9,250 nt of DNA from Nitrospira sp. (GTDB taxonomy: Bacteria > Nitrospirota > Nitrospiria > Nitrospirales > Nitrospiraceae). The stretch is taken from assembly GCA_015904055.1 (NCBI GenBank), contig JABMDE010000011.1, forward strand, positions 55,080 to 64,329. The letters run 5' to 3'. The notes under the pieces are model-generated. The model made no database searches. It was given only the letters and a program-made list of their open reading frames with translations, and was not told where the DNA came from. Of the stretch, positions 2,898 through 9,250 are shown in pieces; positions within the stretch are counted from its first letter, which is position 1, and each line of letters begins with the position of its first letter. A program made the position numbers and the translations under genes.

Positions 2898-3961
2898 TGC
2901 CGCGCATCGCCACCTTCGATGAGTTTCGCGATGCCATCGTCGCCTATCGATTGCCGCGTGTGTTGTTGGCCGGGTTGGAACTGGACGTCTTTACGGCGGT
3001 TGGCGAAGGGGCATGGACGATTTCCGCTCTTGCCAAGCAGCTCAAGGTCAGCGAGCGAGGATTGGATATCCTCTGCCGGAATCTTGCCATGGCCGGTCTG
3101 TTGCTGAAGAAAGGCGGAACCTACAGAAACAGCCGGCTTGGAGCGACGGCGCTCAATGCGACCCATCCTGCCTATCGAGGGTCGTATCTGGATTTAATCA
3201 GGACCCACTGGATGGACTGGGTTCGGCTGTCGGAGTCGGTGCGAAGCGGGTTGCCGATCGATCACGAGGTTCCCGACAGCCCGGATTGGCGCCGCCGGTT
3301 CACCTGGGCCATGCATCACCGCACAGTGGAAAAGGCCCCGGCGATTGCCTCGCAGATCACGCTGGGCAATGCCCGCACGTTTCTCGATCTCGGCGGTGGC
3401 CCCGGCACCTACGCGCTCTCATTTTTAGCGAAAAATCCCCGGTTGCGCGCCACCGTGTGCGATCGGGCCGAGGCGTTGGATGTGGCCAAAGAGATCGCTG
3501 CTACGCATCGGGCGGGACTGCGACTGTCGTATCTGCCGTGTGACTTTACCAAGGAGCCGATTTCAGGCACGTATGATGTGATCTGGTATTCCAACGTGCT
3601 GCATATCTACTCGCCGGAGGTTAACCGGGCGGTGTTTCGTCGGGTCTTGGCTGCGTTGGCGCCGGGCGGGCGGTTCATCATGCAAGACGCGTTTCTTCAT
3701 GGCCGCGAGGGGTTGCTTCCCGCGGAGTCCAGTCTGTTTGCCGTCTCGATGTTACTGTTTACGGAGGGGGGGAACACCTATCCGGCGTCGGAGACTGCGA
3801 CATGGCTCAAAGAGGCCGGGTTTACACGAATCACATCACTCCCGCTCAAGAAGAAGACTGAGGACTGGGAAAACGGAATTCTTGAGGCGTCGGCACCTAC
3901 CGCACATCCAAAAAGGAGCGTCCTCCAAACAGGATCAAGAGGAAGTTTAAAAGTCCGCTGA
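2897..3961 (+). CDS. SAM-dependent O-methyltransferase, class-2-like, with dimerisation domain
   Basis: The product has 354 residues. Residues about 10-85 form a winged-helix dimerisation domain (LPRVLLAGLELDVFTAV, then TISALAKQLKVSERGLDILCRNL), and about 130-330 the Rossmann methyltransferase domain. SAM motif I is DLGGGPG (164-170); NVLHIYSPE (233-241) is in the place of the conserved LHDW segment and carries the candidate catalytic H236; APGGRFIMQDAF (255-266) and the TYPASETATWLKEAGF stretch (294-309) complete the family pattern. Relatives methylate hydroxyls of small aromatic or secondary-metabolite substrates; the substrate here is unknown. ATG 2897 overlaps the upstream TAA. The same open frame runs back to 2579 but lies inside the preceding gene, so the longer version is rejected. 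Residues 333-354 form a tail overlapping the convergent gene by 65 bases. Confidence 0.88.
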   Translation: MPRIATFDEFRDAIVAYRLPRVLLAGLELDVFTAVGEGAWTISALAKQLKVSERGLDILCRNLAMAGLLLKKGGTYRNSRLGATALNATHPAYRGSYLDLIRTHWMDWVRLSESVRSGLPIDHEVPDSPDWRRRFTWAMHHRTVEKAPAIASQITLGNARTFLDLGGGPGTYALSFLAKNPRLRATVCDRAEALDVAKEIAATHRAGLRLSYLPCDFTKEPISGTYDVIWYSNVLHIYSPEVNRAVFRRVLAALAPGGRFIMQDAFLHGREGLLPAESSLFAVSMLLFTEGGNTYPASETATWLKEAGFTRITSLPLKKKTEDWENGILEASAPTAHPKRSVLQTGSRGSLKVR

Positions 3962-4247
3962 CCAGGCTGCTCAGCAGGGGCAGCATAATGTCCGGATCTT
4001 TTGACAGGATCTGGACCACCGTGGCGACGTCCATCGCCAACCCTACCGTTCCATACATCACACAGACCATCATGGCCCAACGAAACCCGCGCCAAATCAG
4101 AAGTCCTAGACTGAAAGGGACCAGGGCGAAAAAGTCGATCCTCCAGGCCTCTATTGGTGAGGGGGAGGTGTCAGACCCTATCGTCAAAGCCCCTATGTTG
4201 ACAGCTAGGAGCCCCGCCAACAGGGTGAGTAAGACGGTGTGTTTCAT
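3897..4247 (-). CDS. Small integral membrane protein, four predicted helices
   Basis: The product has 116 residues and no family I can name. Hydrophobic segments lie at about 4-23, 38-52, 57-80 and 88-108, with short polar loops (for example SDTSPSPIEAWR and SKDPD), so it should sit in the inner membrane. The C-terminus is RSFLDVR. The start at 4247 is chosen because it puts the first helix at the N-terminus. The frame is open back to 4382 but the added residues are not protein-like. No Shine-Dalgarno sequence precedes the ATG, and a good -10 (TATAGT) ends seven bases before it, which suggests a leaderless mRNA. Its 3' end overlaps the methyltransferase tail by 65 bases on the other strand. 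It is divergent from the secreted-repeat gene. Confidence 0.72.
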   Translation of the reverse strand: MKHTVLLTLLAGLLAVNIGALTIGSDTSPSPIEAWRIDFFALVPFSLGLLIWRGFRWAMMVCVMYGTVGLAMDVATVVQILSKDPDIMLPLLSSLVSGLLNFLLILFGGRSFLDVR

Positions 4248-4253
4248 GGGGAG

Positions 4254-4283
4254 ACTATAAGACGGGGGAAGGAAGATCGGCAA
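4254..4283 (-). promoter_or_regulatory. Candidate promoter of the 4247 membrane-protein gene (leaderless)
   Basis: Read on the minus strand, TTGCCG (4283-4278) is followed after 18 bases by TATAGT (4259-4254), which differs from TATAAT at one position. Transcription would begin at about 4247, the A of the ATG, so the message would be leaderless. The -35 lies inside one arm of the 4276-4300 dyad, a classical position for repression. This is by consensus matching. Confidence 0.45.
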
Positions 4284-4300
4284 TGGCCCGGATTGCCGAT
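4276..4300. promoter_or_regulatory. Perfect 9-bp dyad, candidate operator
   Basis: ATCGGCAAT (4276-4284) and ATTGCCGAT (4292-4300) are exact inverted repeats with a 7-base spacer. They lie in the gap between two divergent genes and one arm covers the proposed -35 of the minus-strand gene. A dimeric transcription factor site is the simplest reading; an RNA hairpin in the plus-strand leader is also possible. Confidence 0.5.
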
Positions 4301-4332
4301 GTACAACCCCCTCCTTTTGGGGGGACGTGTAC
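4301..4332. repeat. Second inverted repeat in the divergent gap
   Basis: GTACA (4301-4305) pairs with TGTAC (4328-4332), and CCCCC (4307-4311) pairs with GGGGG (4320-4324), separated by a small asymmetric bulge. The loop is TCCTTTTG. It directly follows the first dyad. No T-run follows, so it is not a standard terminator for plus-strand transcription. Confidence 0.45.
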
Positions 4333-4387
4333 TGATAGTGGGGAATATACCGGCGACAAGATCTCTTGCAGAATGCAGACACGCATC

Positions 4388-4394
4388 AGGAGGG
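4388..4394 (+). promoter_or_regulatory. Strong ribosome site fixing the 4398 start
   Basis: AGGAGGG ends three bases before ATG 4398. It is the strongest Shine-Dalgarno sequence in the window and settles the start of the secreted-repeat protein, despite the unusually long stretch before its signal helix. Confidence 0.65.
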
Positions 4395-4397
4395 TCT

Positions 4398-5312
4398 ATG
4401 TCGCAGATCCATTGCTTTTCTCAACATCTTGGCAGGCTGACGGACTCTTCACCGAGTACCGTTCCGGGTTGTAGACATTACAACAGCACACCATCGGCCA
4501 CGCAGGCTCGCGGAATATGGAGTCTTTCGCGCAGGTTGATTGGGGTCGGCTTATGCCTCTCATTGATGGGGGGGCAGGCATGGGGCGAGGTTGGGACCGA
4601 ACAAAAGGAAGGCCAGCAGGCCATCGTTGCGGCAGGTTTTGGCTATCAGGACAGTGTTGAGTCGACCATTACGGTCAAGGTGTACAATCCTGCCTCTGGT
4701 GAGGTGTTATCAGAAGACGTATACGAATTGAGCGTTAAAGAAGACAGTTTTGGCGGGTCGAATGGCTCAGCGGGCCGCATTTTTGCCGGCGGGGTCGGCC
4801 TGGGTGCTACCGATCTCTCCAGTTTTGTCGTTCGCGTGTACGATGCAAAGACGGGTGAGTTCCAGTGGTCCGGACGGCTCAATCTGACGCCGGGCGACGA
4901 GAGTGAGGCGGGGCGGTTAATTTCCACTGTGGTGCCGCGACGCGCGACCATCATGAAAATCCATGATATCGATACAGCGGCGCAGTCGCCACTGTTTGTA
5001 CTGCGTGCCGTGGATGTGTCGACCGGAGGGGTTCTCTGGGAAGATGAGTTTTCCGCCGATGGCGAGGGTGTGGCGAAGGTCAGGCAGATCACGACTCGCG
5101 TGATGGATGCCGTAGAGGGCGCACTGGTCGCTGATCTATTCGAATTCAGAATTCGCGTGTTTGCGCAAGATGGCCGGACGGTGTTGTGGGAAGATCAGGT
5201 GCTTCAGGAACCGGCCGATGAAGAGGCTCAAAGTGTGGTCGATGATCGTGCGCAGATGCTGCCGGCCTGGACAGGGACCACCGAACAAGATCCCAAGCCG
5301 GAGGAAATCTAG
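4398..5312 (+). CDS. Exported protein with four beta-rich repeats, function unknown
   Basis: The product has 304 residues. A basic SRRL precedes a hydrophobic core (IGVGLCLSLMGG, 48-59) and an AWG-E cleavage-like site near 63, so it is probably exported to the periplasm or beyond. The n-region of about 45 residues is unusually long. The mature part has four versions of a unit that reads hydrophobic-V-R/K-V-Y-D-x-x-TGE-x-LWED: they begin near 91 (ITVKVYNPASGEVLSED), 143 (FVVRVYDAKTGEFQWSG), 200 (FVLRAVDVSTGGVLWED) and 250 (FRIRVFAQDGRTVLWED). The D-x-x-TG-x-LW core recalls single blades of PQQ-type propellers, but four copies at 50-57 residue spacing do not make a known complete propeller. The C-terminus is acidic. 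It is convergent with the peptidase gene, sharing CTAG. I cannot assign a function. Confidence 0.78.
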   Translation: MSQIHCFSQHLGRLTDSSPSTVPGCRHYNSTPSATQARGIWSLSRRLIGVGLCLSLMGGQAWGEVGTEQKEGQQAIVAAGFGYQDSVESTITVKVYNPASGEVLSEDVYELSVKEDSFGGSNGSAGRIFAGGVGLGATDLSSFVVRVYDAKTGEFQWSGRLNLTPGDESEAGRLISTVVPRRATIMKIHDIDTAAQSPLFVLRAVDVSTGGVLWEDEFSADGEGVAKVRQITTRVMDAVEGALVADLFEFRIRVFAQDGRTVLWEDQVLQEPADEEAQSVVDDRAQMLPAWTGTTEQDPKPEEI

Positions 5313-6733
5313 GAGCGTTTTTGCTGGAAACTCTCCAGCCACTGATGATGGAATTGTTCGTAGGAGACGAACAACGTATTTTGAATGGCGGTTGCCGCTG
5401 ATGTTCGTGTCTTGAATGCCTTCAGGAGTCCATCGATCTGCGTCATTCCCCACCGTTCGATCAGATAGTGCGTCGCAGAGTTTGCCTCTAGATAGGCCAG
5501 CGTTGCGGCGTCCTCCGGCAAGGCACCCCAAGGGCCTTCGAGATAGGTCAACGGGATGAGTGTGACGTTTCCGTGTAAGGCCTCATCAAGATCGGGCCAT
5601 GAATCGCCGGCCAATTGCATGGCCAGCCCCTCGTTCAACCAGGTGGGAAGCGATCCGCTGCTCGTGCCCAGCCGGTCGTGCAGCAGGGCATGGACATATT
5701 CGTGGCGCAACACCGAGGTCAACCACTTCGTATCCGTCGTTGCTCCTTGGGTAGGCAGTTGGATACGCCCCAAGGTCGGATCGAACAGACCATCGGCCCA
5801 TGCCGGGCTTCCGGTCGCGCCTTGAAACGAATCTTTCGTGTGGAGCACGACCACGATGGGTTTTGACGGGAAGTGCCCGAACTTCTGCCCGATTTCCCGA
5901 TAGGCGTCCTCAAGTATCTCCAGCACGGCGGTCCAAGTGCCGTGATCCTCGGCCCCATCGAATTTCACCATGAAATGTTCGCTCATTTTTGCCGTCATGC
6001 GGGATTCAACCGATTCCATATGCTGAACCTTGGCGGTGACGGCGGCCAGATACGATCGTAACGCGGGATCGCGCGGCAGACGGTCTGCCGCCCGGGCCAG
6101 ATGTTTCACGGCTTCCGACGATTGATGCTGTTCATGCAGCAGCTCGGCCATCGCCAGGTGAGGAAAGGGCTCTTCAGGGGCGAGCCGAATCAATTGTTCC
6201 AGAAGGTCTCGATTCAGGGCAGGGTCCCGTTGCTCCCAGTAGGCATGGGCCAGGTTCAGGAGGATGACCGGGTTCGAGCTATCGAGCGCAGCGGCTTTTT
6301 TGAATGCCTTCACTGAGAGCTGTGTGCCGTAGAGCGTTTCTTGTTCGAGTCCGAGATTGTTCCAGAGCACGGCCACAAATGGTTTGGTTGTGGCGTCCGA
6401 GATCACACTTTGGGAAAGGGCCAGGAGTTTGGTTTCTGCGAGCGGTAAATTGTGTTTTTCAATTTCATCGCGGATCGCGATCAGTAGCGCCTCATGAGGA
6501 GAGCCGGGTATGGCAGGATGATCGAGGACACGGACCTGTGCGGTGTGTACTTCACGGGGGATGGCGGCAGGGGGTGGCGGCGGCGAGACTGGTTCAATGG
6601 TATCGCCGACGGCTGAAGCGGTGGAGGCACGCTGGGTGGCGGCGGGTGTTTTGAGAAATAGGTTGTATCCCACGACCAGCGCCAGTGCCAGCGCCATGGG
6701 TATCAAGATATGCGTAATATTGCGGCGATACAT
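5309..6733 (-). CDS. Membrane-anchored TPR protein with peptidase MA-like zinc site
   Basis: The product has 474 residues. One N-terminal membrane helix (about 7-27) is followed by a proline-rich linker (around 48-60), then TPR-like helices (about 80-240; for example AVLWNNLGLEQETLYG and PVILLNLAHAYWEQRD), then a C-terminal domain of the peptidase MA (gluzincin-like) type. The zinc motif is HEYVH (344-348), with the third ligand candidate E368 in PTWLNEGLA. The expected topology is an N-in anchor with the TPR and peptidase parts in the periplasm; substrate unknown. The start at 6733 is taken because it places the anchor at the N-terminus. The frame is open to 7384, but that extension is antisense to recG and rejected. 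The ribosome site is poor, and a promoter lies a few bases upstream. It ends convergently with the secreted-repeat gene. Confidence 0.83.
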   Translation of the reverse strand: MYRRNITHILIPMALALALVVGYNLFLKTPAATQRASTASAVGDTIEPVSPPPPPAAIPREVHTAQVRVLDHPAIPGSPHEALLIAIRDEIEKHNLPLAETKLLALSQSVISDATTKPFVAVLWNNLGLEQETLYGTQLSVKAFKKAAALDSSNPVILLNLAHAYWEQRDPALNRDLLEQLIRLAPEEPFPHLAMAELLHEQHQSSEAVKHLARAADRLPRDPALRSYLAAVTAKVQHMESVESRMTAKMSEHFMVKFDGAEDHGTWTAVLEILEDAYREIGQKFGHFPSKPIVVVLHTKDSFQGATGSPAWADGLFDPTLGRIQLPTQGATTDTKWLTSVLRHEYVHALLHDRLGTSSGSLPTWLNEGLAMQLAGDSWPDLDEALHGNVTLIPLTYLEGPWGALPEDAATLAYLEANSATHYLIERWGMTQIDGLLKAFKTRTSAATAIQNTLFVSYEQFHHQWLESFQQKRS

Positions 6734-6748
6734 GTTGTTTCGAGCATG

Positions 6749-6776
6749 AGTGTAGCACCCTAGGCAGAACCGACAA
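6749..6776 (-). promoter_or_regulatory. Candidate promoter of the TPR/peptidase gene
   Basis: Read on the minus strand, TTGTCG (6776-6771) is separated by 16 bases from TACACT (6754-6749), preceded by TGC to give an extended -10. The start of transcription would be near 6742, leaving a leader of only about nine bases before ATG 6733. It is divergent from the recG promoter, which has a very similar TGCTAC core. Confidence 0.42.
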
Positions 6777-6821
6777 AGTGTTCCGGGAAAACCGGCGCGC
6801 ACACTGCCTGTCTTGCTGTCG

Positions 6822-6850
6822 TTGAGCCGTGGAGAGTGCTGTGCTACGAT
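6822..6850 (+). promoter_or_regulatory. Candidate recG promoter, nearly leaderless
   Basis: TTGAGC (6822-6827), a 17-base spacer and TACGAT (6845-6850) with TGC in front form an extended -10 promoter. The predicted start is at about 6857, two or three bases before ATG 6860, the start of the RecG N-terminal segment. No Shine-Dalgarno site precedes that ATG, which fits a leaderless message. Confidence 0.42.
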
Positions 6851-6859
6851 TCGCCCGGT

Positions 6860-6994
6860 ATGCAGACTCCCTCCAAGTCGACTGCTGTAAGAGCGTTTCA
6901 GGATTGGTTGGACCGCGTTGCGCGTCCCATCGAATTTGCAACTCGAGACGAATGCGCGCACCTGGGTGCTGTGAAAAACCTTGCATCGCCGGGC
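6860..6994 (+). pseudogene. recG: RecG N-terminal remnant, out of frame with the helicase body
   Basis: From ATG 6860 this frame reads MQTPSKSTAVRAFQDWLDRV, followed by ARPIEFATRDECAHLGAVKN and L. I recognise this as the start of the helical N-terminal extension found in RecG proteins of several phyla (pattern: basic helix, P-x-x-F-A-x-RD-x-x-AHL-x-x-VK-x-L). After about residue 43 (S, 6986-6988) the family resemblance stops and the frame drifts into Arg/Trp/Cys-rich residues until 7216. The next recognisable RecG sequence, in a different frame, begins only about ten bases later with the end of the wedge domain. The rest of the extension, the helix-hairpin-helix segment and most of the OB fold are absent. 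The exact junction, somewhere in 6980-7000, cannot be placed without an intact relative. Confidence 0.65.
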
Positions 6995-7005
6995 GCCAGG
7001 GTTGG

Positions 7006-8808
7006 ATGGTTCCGCGGATGGAGGTGGCGCAGTACGAGGTACTTGGAGAGGATACGGAATCGACCCTGCATGTGGGGCGGATTGTGCCGGTCTATCACGA
7101 AACGAAGGGATGGACATCCCGTCAAATGCGGGTGCTGGAAAAAGATCTGTTGGACGAGCATGTGCGTGAACTACACGATTGTCTTCCGGTGCAACTTCGG
7201 GCCCGTCGGCGGCTGATTCCGATTCAAGAGGCGCTGCGGGATGTGCACTTTCCTGACGCCAGCGCCGATCTCGCGCTGCTGGAGCAGGGCAAGACGACGG
7301 CGCATCGGCGGTTGGCGTTCGAAGAGCTGTTTCTTCTCCAGACGGCCTTGGCGACCAGGCAACGGTCGGTGCAGAACGAGCCAAAACAGCTGACGTTCAA
7401 TCCGCGCACGCCGCTCCTGGAGAAGTTGAGCCGGCTGCTGCCGTTCCGGCTTACAGCCGCGCAAGATCGGGTGATTCGGGAAGTGTTTCACGATATGCTG
7501 ACGCCGCGGCCGATGAATCGTCTGGTGCAAGGCGATGTCGGATCGGGAAAGACCGCCGTTGCGCTCCATGCGCTCGTTATGGCTTGTGGGTCAGGCTATC
7601 AGGCGGCATTGATGGCGCCAACGGAGATTCTGGCTGAGCAACACTATCGCAATCTGTCCGGGACCTTTGAATCTCTGGGGCTGAAGGCGATGCTCATGCG
7701 AGGCGGAGACAAGGCATCAGTGAAGACCGCGCAGATCTCACAGCTTGCGTCCGGGGAAATTCAGGTGGCGATCGGCACCCATGCGCTGATTCAAAAGGGA
7801 GTGATGTTCAAGAACCTGGGATTGGCTGTTGTGGACGAGCAACACAAGTTCGGCGTACTCCAGCGGAAAACACTGATCGACAAAGGGTATAAGCCGGATA
7901 TGCTGGTACTCACGGCGACACCGATCCCACGGACGCTGGCGATGACGGTGTACGGCGATCTGGATGTGTCGGTCATCGATGAGCTGCCGCCGGGGAGAAA
8001 ACCGGTCCACACGCTCCTCTTCGACCAATCGCAGCGGCGGCGGGCGTACCAGCTCCTGCGTGATGAGTTGCGCAACGGCAGGCAGGCCTATGTGGTCTAT
8101 CCCCTCATCGAGGAGTCGGAAAAGACGGATCTTCAGGCGGCGATGCAAGGGGCCGAACAATTACAGAACGGAGAACTCGCCGAGTTTCGCGTCGGCCTGT
8201 TGCATGGGCGCATGAAAGCGGCGGAGAAGGAATTGGTGATGGCCGAGTTCAAAGCCGGAGCCATTCATGCCCTCGTTGCGACGACGGTGGTTGAAGTCGG
8301 AGTCGATGTGCCGAATGCGACTATCATGATGATTGAACATGCCGAACGATTCGGCCTGGCGCAACTGCATCAATTGCGCGGGCGTGTCGGGCGAGCAGGT
8401 CATCAATCCTACTGCCTGCTGATGGTGTCGGGGAGATGGAGCAAGGGAGGGGCAAGGGCTAGAGGTTTGAAGGGCGCGCTCGCTCCCGATGCTGCCGATG
8501 CGGATGGGCCATCGGCGTCACGAGAACGGTTGGAGGCGCTGGTGCGGTCGAACGACGGGTTTGTCATTGCCGAAGAAGATCTGCGTATTAGAGGGCCTGG
8601 AGAGTTCTTTGGTCTTCGACAATGGGGCATGCCGGAGTTTCGTGTGGCCAACATCGTGCGGGACGCCGATTTGCTGCAACAGGCCAGACAAGAAGCCTTC
8701 GCATTGTTGAAAATTGACCCGGACTTGAAGGCCCCGGCGCATCAGGAGTTGCGGGAAGCCATGTTGCGGAAGTGGCAGGAGAAATTGGAGCTGGGGTCAA
8801 TCAGTTGA
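7006..8808 (+). CDS. recG: ATP-dependent DNA helicase RecG, helicase body lacking the wedge domain
   Basis: RecG remodels stalled replication forks and Holliday junctions. Counting from ATG 7006 (600 residues), the helicase part is complete: Walker A GDVGSGKT (176-183), DEQH (277-280), TATPIPRT (303-310), VATTVVEVGVDVPNA, QLRGRVGR (456-463), then the RecG-specific SNDGFVIAEEDLRIRGPGE. Upstream only the last wedge strand (MEVAQYEVLGED, from 7018) and the linker (RIVPVYHETKG) are present, so the DNA-splitting wedge is missing. AGGG at 6998-7001 could serve ATG 7006. The frame is open back to GTG 6829, but those residues are Cys/Arg/Ser-rich and overlap the real N-terminal frame. About 24 extra residues (GRWSKGGARARG onward) sit after the motif VI region compared with E. 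coli RecG. A wedge-less product is not expected to work as normal RecG. Confidence 0.88.
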   Translation: MVPRMEVAQYEVLGEDTESTLHVGRIVPVYHETKGWTSRQMRVLEKDLLDEHVRELHDCLPVQLRARRRLIPIQEALRDVHFPDASADLALLEQGKTTAHRRLAFEELFLLQTALATRQRSVQNEPKQLTFNPRTPLLEKLSRLLPFRLTAAQDRVIREVFHDMLTPRPMNRLVQGDVGSGKTAVALHALVMACGSGYQAALMAPTEILAEQHYRNLSGTFESLGLKAMLMRGGDKASVKTAQISQLASGEIQVAIGTHALIQKGVMFKNLGLAVVDEQHKFGVLQRKTLIDKGYKPDMLVLTATPIPRTLAMTVYGDLDVSVIDELPPGRKPVHTLLFDQSQRRRAYQLLRDELRNGRQAYVVYPLIEESEKTDLQAAMQGAEQLQNGELAEFRVGLLHGRMKAAEKELVMAEFKAGAIHALVATTVVEVGVDVPNATIMMIEHAERFGLAQLHQLRGRVGRAGHQSYCLLMVSGRWSKGGARARGLKGALAPDAADADGPSASRERLEALVRSNDGFVIAEEDLRIRGPGEFFGLRQWGMPEFRVANIVRDADLLQQARQEAFALLKIDPDLKAPAHQELREAMLRKWQEKLELGSIS

Positions 8809-8810
8809 AA

Positions 8811-8906
8811 GAGCTGACAAGCACGTAGGCTGACAGGCGTGCAAGCGGCAGGTTGACAAGATTGGTGTTCCGGATGTCAGCTTGAGACCTGTCAACCTGT
8901 TAGCCA
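8811..8906. repeat. Intergenic element of short direct and inverted repeats
   Basis: The 107-base gap after recG is nearly filled by variants of GCTGACA: GCTGACA (8813-8819), GGCTGACAGG (8828-8837) and CAGGTTGACA (8849-8858), with inverse partners TGTCAGC (8875-8881), TGTCAACCTG (8890-8899) and CCTGTTAGCC (8896-8905). The 8849/8890 pair is a perfect 10-bp stem; the 8828/8896 pair has one wobble. Several folds compete. No T-run follows. Its construction is like that of the 971-1028 element, though the unit differs. The function could be termination, mRNA end protection, or a dispersed repeat. Confidence 0.55.
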
Positions 8907-8915
8907 GAGGGTCGA

Positions 8916-9239
8916 ATGGGCTTATTACAGAGACTGAAAGACGATTTGCGGACAGGCATCGCAACCTTGCGTCTGGGAACCGTGCATGCGGCCGGCCGCG
9001 CGCTGGAAGAGACGGAATTGCTCAGGATGCGGCTCGAAGCCCGCAAGTTGGACCAGCAACTCTCCGATCTCTATAAGGATATCGGTGAGCGGGCCGTCGA
9101 GATGAAAGAGCGCGGCGAAACAGCGGAGCACATCATCCATGATGCAGAAATCGGCAGGCTTGTTCGAGAGGTGCAGGCGATCAAGGAGTCGCGTAAGAAA
9201 CTGGAAGCCGAGATGGACGAGATTCGGAACGAGCAATGA
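8916..9239 (+). CDS. Small coiled-coil protein of unknown function
   Basis: The product has 107 residues, highly charged and almost entirely helical, with no membrane segment or signal peptide. An N-terminal amphipathic piece (GLLQRLKDDLRTGIATLRLG) is followed by heptad-like helices (ALEETELLRMRLEARKLDQQ, and later REVQAIKESRKKLEAEMDEI), separated by a short acidic and polar region around GETAEHIIHDAEIG. A helical hairpin or a dimeric coiled coil is likely. ATG 8916 follows AGAGGG (8906-8911) with four bases between. The stop TGA (9237-9239) overlaps a possible next ATG, suggesting it is the first gene of an operon continuing beyond the window. I do not recognise a named family. Confidence 0.75.
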   Translation: MGLLQRLKDDLRTGIATLRLGTVHAAGRALEETELLRMRLEARKLDQQLSDLYKDIGERAVEMKERGETAEHIIHDAEIGRLVREVQAIKESRKKLEAEMDEIRNEQ

Positions 9240-9250
9240 CCGCCCCGCCT
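9236..9250 (+). CDS. Possible start of the next gene (partial)
   Basis: An ATG at 9236 overlaps the preceding TGA as ATGA and reads MTAPP before the window ends. The junction has the same form as 1637 and 2458. Too little is present to say anything about the product. Confidence 0.3.

Follow-up and report, generated by a model that had tools for sequence, protein, structure and literature searches.

A Nitrospira recG gene in two reading frames, joined across 613 missing base pairs

We show that the recG gene in a 9,250-nucleotide stretch of a Nitrospira sp. metagenome contig (the window; contig JABMDE010000011.1, positions 55,080 to 64,329) is a join of two pieces with 613 bp missing between them, and that this join is absent from the relatives we searched. 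We tentatively favour a technical origin for the join, which we infer, and consider a real deletion about equally likely. Nothing in this copy of recG points to new biology: the gene is a known one, either broken or wrongly joined, and its state resembles a routine single loss or a fault of assembly rather than a novel type of enzyme.

Results

Using as reference a Nitrospira RecG of 853 amino acids (P0002, encoded on a 71.8-kb contig), we located both pieces on the forward strand. The N-terminal piece starts at ATG 6860, ends in AVKNL at 6982 and is identical to residues 1–41 of P0002 at 41 of 41 positions in the protein alignment; with one extra base it forms a 5′ remnant at 6860–6983. After codon 41 the frame of the remnant departs from RecG and runs to a stop at 7216, giving 118 amino acids altogether. 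The recG body occupies a second frame at 6985–8808, its stop codon included, and corresponds without gaps to residues 247–853 (581/607 identical). Residues 42–246 of P0002, a run of 205, are absent from the window. This arrangement bears out an earlier note on this DNA, made from the sequence alone, which had described two adjoining RecG pieces in different frames and a loss on the order of 200 codons; its placement of the wedge end at about 7000 has to be revised, as the body already starts at 6985 (IAGRQGWMVPRMEV).

The single open frame from start to stop that marks a RecG gene is thus replaced here by two pieces in different frames, and no full RecG can be produced from this copy as written. 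A mechanical open reading frame (ORF) of 659 amino acids (6829–8808, forward strand) combines the 5′ remnant, read out of frame, with the body, and its start is no natural RecG N-terminus. The first in-frame ATG of the body lies at 7006–7008 on the same strand, with a second at 7018. Beyond the gene, between recG and an ORF at 8916, an exact 10-base inverted repeat (CAGGTTGACA / TGTCAACCTG) was noticed by eye at 8849–8899.

Among 65 loci compared with the window, the closest relatives of the recG body are Nitrospira assemblies, and the two closest in DNA sequence served to place the breakpoints: L001, with 93.2% identity in the body, and L030, with 92.5% over the portion present. The blastn alignments end on the left at 6983 for both loci and resume at 6984 (L030) or 6985 (L001), which sets the deletion junction at 6983–6984 on the forward strand; L001 as a whole aligns to window positions 3371–6983, 6985–8798 and 8916–9250. 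Each locus carries a net 613 bases more than the window between these flanks. As 613 leaves a remainder of 1 on division by three, the net loss breaks the recG frame, in agreement with the earlier proposal that the deletion was not a multiple of three.

Microhomology at the breakpoints, which the earlier note had suggested looking for, was sought and none was seen. In both L001 and L030 a glycine codon supplies its second base just past the left end, a valine codon supplies its second base opposite 6983 when approached from the right, and each of these bases mismatches the window. Since neither flanking base fits, microhomology is not visible at 6983|6984, with relatives about 7% apart standing as proxies for the pre-deletion sequence. 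A stricter pattern scan of 98 locus sequences passed seven distinct recG copies, all seven with valine at the right end, and with glycine (four) or serine (three) at the left. Deletion between direct repeats was considered and rejected: among matches of at least 7 bases within 60 bp of both ends the longest was 8 bases, and none was in register. By these comparisons, two points 613 bp apart appear to be joined without shared sequence in an otherwise ordinary Nitrospira recG.

Pfam matches place the wedge of P0002 at residues 135–297 and an OB-fold at 194–260. The loss of residues 42–246 removes the rest of the N-terminal extension (42–134) and 112 of the 163 wedge residues. Removal of the wedge, as first described, therefore holds for most of that domain; its last 51 residues remain in the body, and residues 42–134 precede it. 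A Pfam search of the window ORF gave no match to PF17191 (wedge) or PF01336 (OB-fold). The helicase half, which had been called intact, is so: PF00270, PF00271 and PF19833 all exceed their cut-offs, the body retains DEAD, Helicase_C and RecG domain 3, and its frame stays open to 8808. Against NCBIfam, the 659-amino-acid ORF scored above cut-off for NF008168 (824.4 bits; cut-off 718) and NF008165 (743.6; cut-off 711) and just under it for TIGR00643 (658.4; cut-off 659.4), and other RecG models also fell below theirs.

In the material searched, the junction was met in no other sequence. Every match to the 659-amino-acid ORF covers at most 92% of it (among 120 listed of 8,000 scored), and all 16 matches to the 118-amino-acid junction ORF align over at most 36% of it, none carrying the junction; sequences absorbed into a 90% cluster would escape view in these protein searches. 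At the DNA level, no blastn alignment between the window and the 65 loci crosses 6984. Our literature search on recG pseudogenes in Nitrospira brought up a title on HuH endonucleases, and that on chimeric contigs with an internal deletion brought up none.

Five short RecG N-terminal proteins (P0128, P0130, P0132, P0135 and P0121) were considered as instances of the same break and rejected, as all continue in frame past the window's breakpoint. P0121 carries the name 'partial'. The other four, of 130–195 amino acids, belong to a more distant lineage, where recG frames may be broken or sequencing errors may be at work; contigs of 471 and 588 kb carry two of these proteins.

Across the genus, recG matches were found in 74 of 79 genomes (P0002 query, E ≤ 1e-100; the genus is that of G001, the genome of locus L001), the exceptions being G017, G024, G029, G050 and G058. 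The gene is full-length and open in 63 of the 74, extending from residue 12 or earlier to residue 852 or later in a frame of at least 851 codons with no stop. Nine others (G002, G003, G028, G032, G062, G071, G073, G075 and G079) are cut at a contig end or no more than 15 bases from it; apart from G079, G002 and one piece in G073, the match in this class starts no further than 15 bases from the first base of its contig. In G004, which has locus L002, recG starts at residue 79 beside an NN, and G019, which has locus L060, shows a different internal loss. The window's short form occurs in none of the 74 recG-bearing genomes, of which G003 holds only residues 597–853 and could not have shown it; all the others retain at least part of residues 42–246. 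When five relatives were searched for a second recG, the next matches were five pieces at 36–39% identity, plus weaker ones; three of the five lie in open frames of 1,157–1,294 amino acids and are read as Mfd.

Substitutions in the body give no sign of relaxed selection, on small counts. Compared with L001, 123 sites differ in 604 codons, distributed 18/15/90 over codon positions 1, 2 and 3. Among the 402 codons common to L001 and L030, changes unique to the window comprise 22 silent and 7 replacing, and the corresponding lineage-unique counts are 30:6 for L001 and 35:9 for L030. As the retained recG is without decay on these small counts, the join is either recent or not biological. A deletion of recent date, a technical join and continued use of the body would each fit this pattern, and the three alternatives offered at the outset (a recent event, an internal start and an assembly error) all agree with the tests run.

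Other irregularities in and near recG were observed in Nitrospira metagenome assemblies. Two loci have 100-N scaffold gaps inside recG (L062:6752–6851 and L065:6439–6538). At L060:6748 (Nitrospira sp. RSF5, 450-kb contig) there is a gapless in-frame join, 502|785, that omits residues 503–784, the motor core. Compared with L012, L060 is 98.0% identical over 6,749 bp left of its join and 88.7% over 1,492 bp to the right; immediately beside the join the values are 96.0% (500 bp left) and 95.3% (450 bp right), with 94.7% over 3,931 bp further right. The loss in L060 may be chimeric or real. Upstream of recG, L030:460–950 (3-kb contig) shows several jumps relative to L001 and the window; short approximate overlaps accompany two of them, and the jumps resemble joins introduced by assembly or by the merging of reads.

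Discussion

Under the technical reading that we favour, the join would have arisen in library preparation or during assembly, as a chimeric or gap-closing join, and the cells would keep a full recG. The survey of the genus agrees with this, with the short form in none of 74 recG genomes and a full-length, open gene in 63, as do the absence of the junction from every listed protein and locus and the constrained look of the retained recG (18/15/90 by codon position; 22:7 silent to replacing). Breaks in recG in L062, L065 and L060 add examples from other Nitrospira metagenome assemblies, and the jumps shortly before recG in L030 count on this side as well. L060 is a weak precedent, since its identity to L012 hardly changes from one flank of the join to the other, and its loss could itself be real. 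Set against a technical join, the window contains no N or ambiguous base, and its other indels relative to L001 within the aligned stretches amount to 1 base at 4291, nine inserted at 4468–4484 and 11 at 6801–6804, the last preceding recG. A de Bruijn assembler, moreover, makes a blunt join only where reads carry it. A chimera with a distant strain was rejected, as the distance to L001 and L030 does not shift across the junction: 28 and 26 differences, respectively, at 293 sites to its left, and 79 and 90 at 1,206 sites to its right. The join may nonetheless be one within the strain.

A real deletion, which we regard as nearly as probable as a technical join, would be a recent loss of 613 bp by homology-free end joining that made recG a new pseudogene and left its work to other enzymes; RuvAB or PriA could take it over. 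It is in keeping with a single clean event in sequence that has no N and elsewhere only small indels, for like distances to both relatives on the two sides of the junction, and for a junction without visible microhomology. Ku-LigD repair can yield joins without homology. The closest genomes by recG are G001, G002 and G003, each 93% to P0002, and G001 encodes Ku (C4:179973–180527) and an NHEJ ligase (C4:181599–182501) about 1 kb apart. Loss of the gene also appears tolerable, an excerpt of one study reporting that deletion of recG in Deinococcus leads to growth delay and reduced damage resistance (PMC7889586).

Several observations weigh on the other side of a real deletion. There is no second sequence with the junction in the protein matches listed or the 65 loci, and 63 of 74 genomes have a full-length recG, with 9 of the remaining 11 cut at contig ends. 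Of 76 genomes in the genus, 9 yielded Ku, and the NHEJ ligase turned up in one of seven (G001); neither was found in G002 (1.5 Mb) or G003 (2.2 Mb), two small genomes that are possibly incomplete. Among 14 control genomes, the Ku search was positive in one (B. subtilis), and the ligase search gave a signal in six, one over the cut-off.

It is very unlikely that the body is translated from ATG 7006 or 7018 and acts as a wedge-less helicase or translocase. Such a product would be compatible with a body frame open over 607 codons, with the presence of the helicase domains and with the constrained look of the substitutions, but a recent event accounts equally well for that constraint. Computed anti-Shine–Dalgarno pairing is −4.6 kcal/mol at 7006 and −6.2 at 7018, within the background of 300 places (5% quantile −8.4, 25% quantile −5.8); this is a weak test, as the usual start, ATG 6860, pairs more weakly still, at −2.3. 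Four homologues without a wedge match (P0013, P0025, P0073 and P0101, among 120 listed) start at an internal methionine within the wedge, and contig ends may have truncated them. The function of the missing part also argues against an internally started product, as the excerpted text of PMC7889586 attributes branched-DNA specificity to the RecG wedge. That of PMC6213257 describes the wedge as engaging the fork branch point. Removing the 99-residue N-terminal extension of Deinococcus RecG leaves activity unaffected, according to the same excerpt of PMC7889586. The fuller proposal, that end joining deprived the strain's RecG of its N-terminal extension and the greater part of its wedge and that the strain would now live on an internally started wedge-less motor, is slightly less probable again; if true, it would be a natural case of a RecG motor parted from the domain that recognises forks.

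Least credible is that this lineage naturally has a RecG of the short form, an idea rejected here since no naturally short relative, of the kind the earlier note had envisaged, occurs among the 74 recG-bearing genomes of the genus (G003 holding too little to be informative) and the twelve nearest proteins (P0001–P0012, among 120 matches listed of 8,000 scored) are all 851–876 amino acids long with the wedge present.

A gene broken by deletion is an already familiar kind of event, whichever reading holds. If the join is technical, it adds to the warnings that little biology should be read into the absence of a domain from a metagenome contig. If it is real, a nitrifier lineage has recently had a conserved fork-repair helicase knocked out, and one of the closest relatives of that lineage has Ku and an NHEJ ligase.

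Compared with known systems, the recG of the window is closest to the RecG helicase family (NF008168 / TIGR00643): its body is 96% identical to residues 247–853 of the Nitrospira protein and has DEAD, Helicase_C and domain 3, whereas residues 42–246 are missing, the frame is broken and most of PF17191 is gone. The recG of L060 offers a parallel, being likewise a gapless internal loss in a Nitrospira metagenome assembly; it differs in losing motor residues 503–784, in frame and between other breakpoints. The structure of RecG in PDB 1gm5, which we take to be the Thermotoga maritima protein, aligns with P0002 from residue 135 across wedge and motor, but the window is without a counterpart of about residues 116–227 in 1gm5 numbering, within the aligned part.
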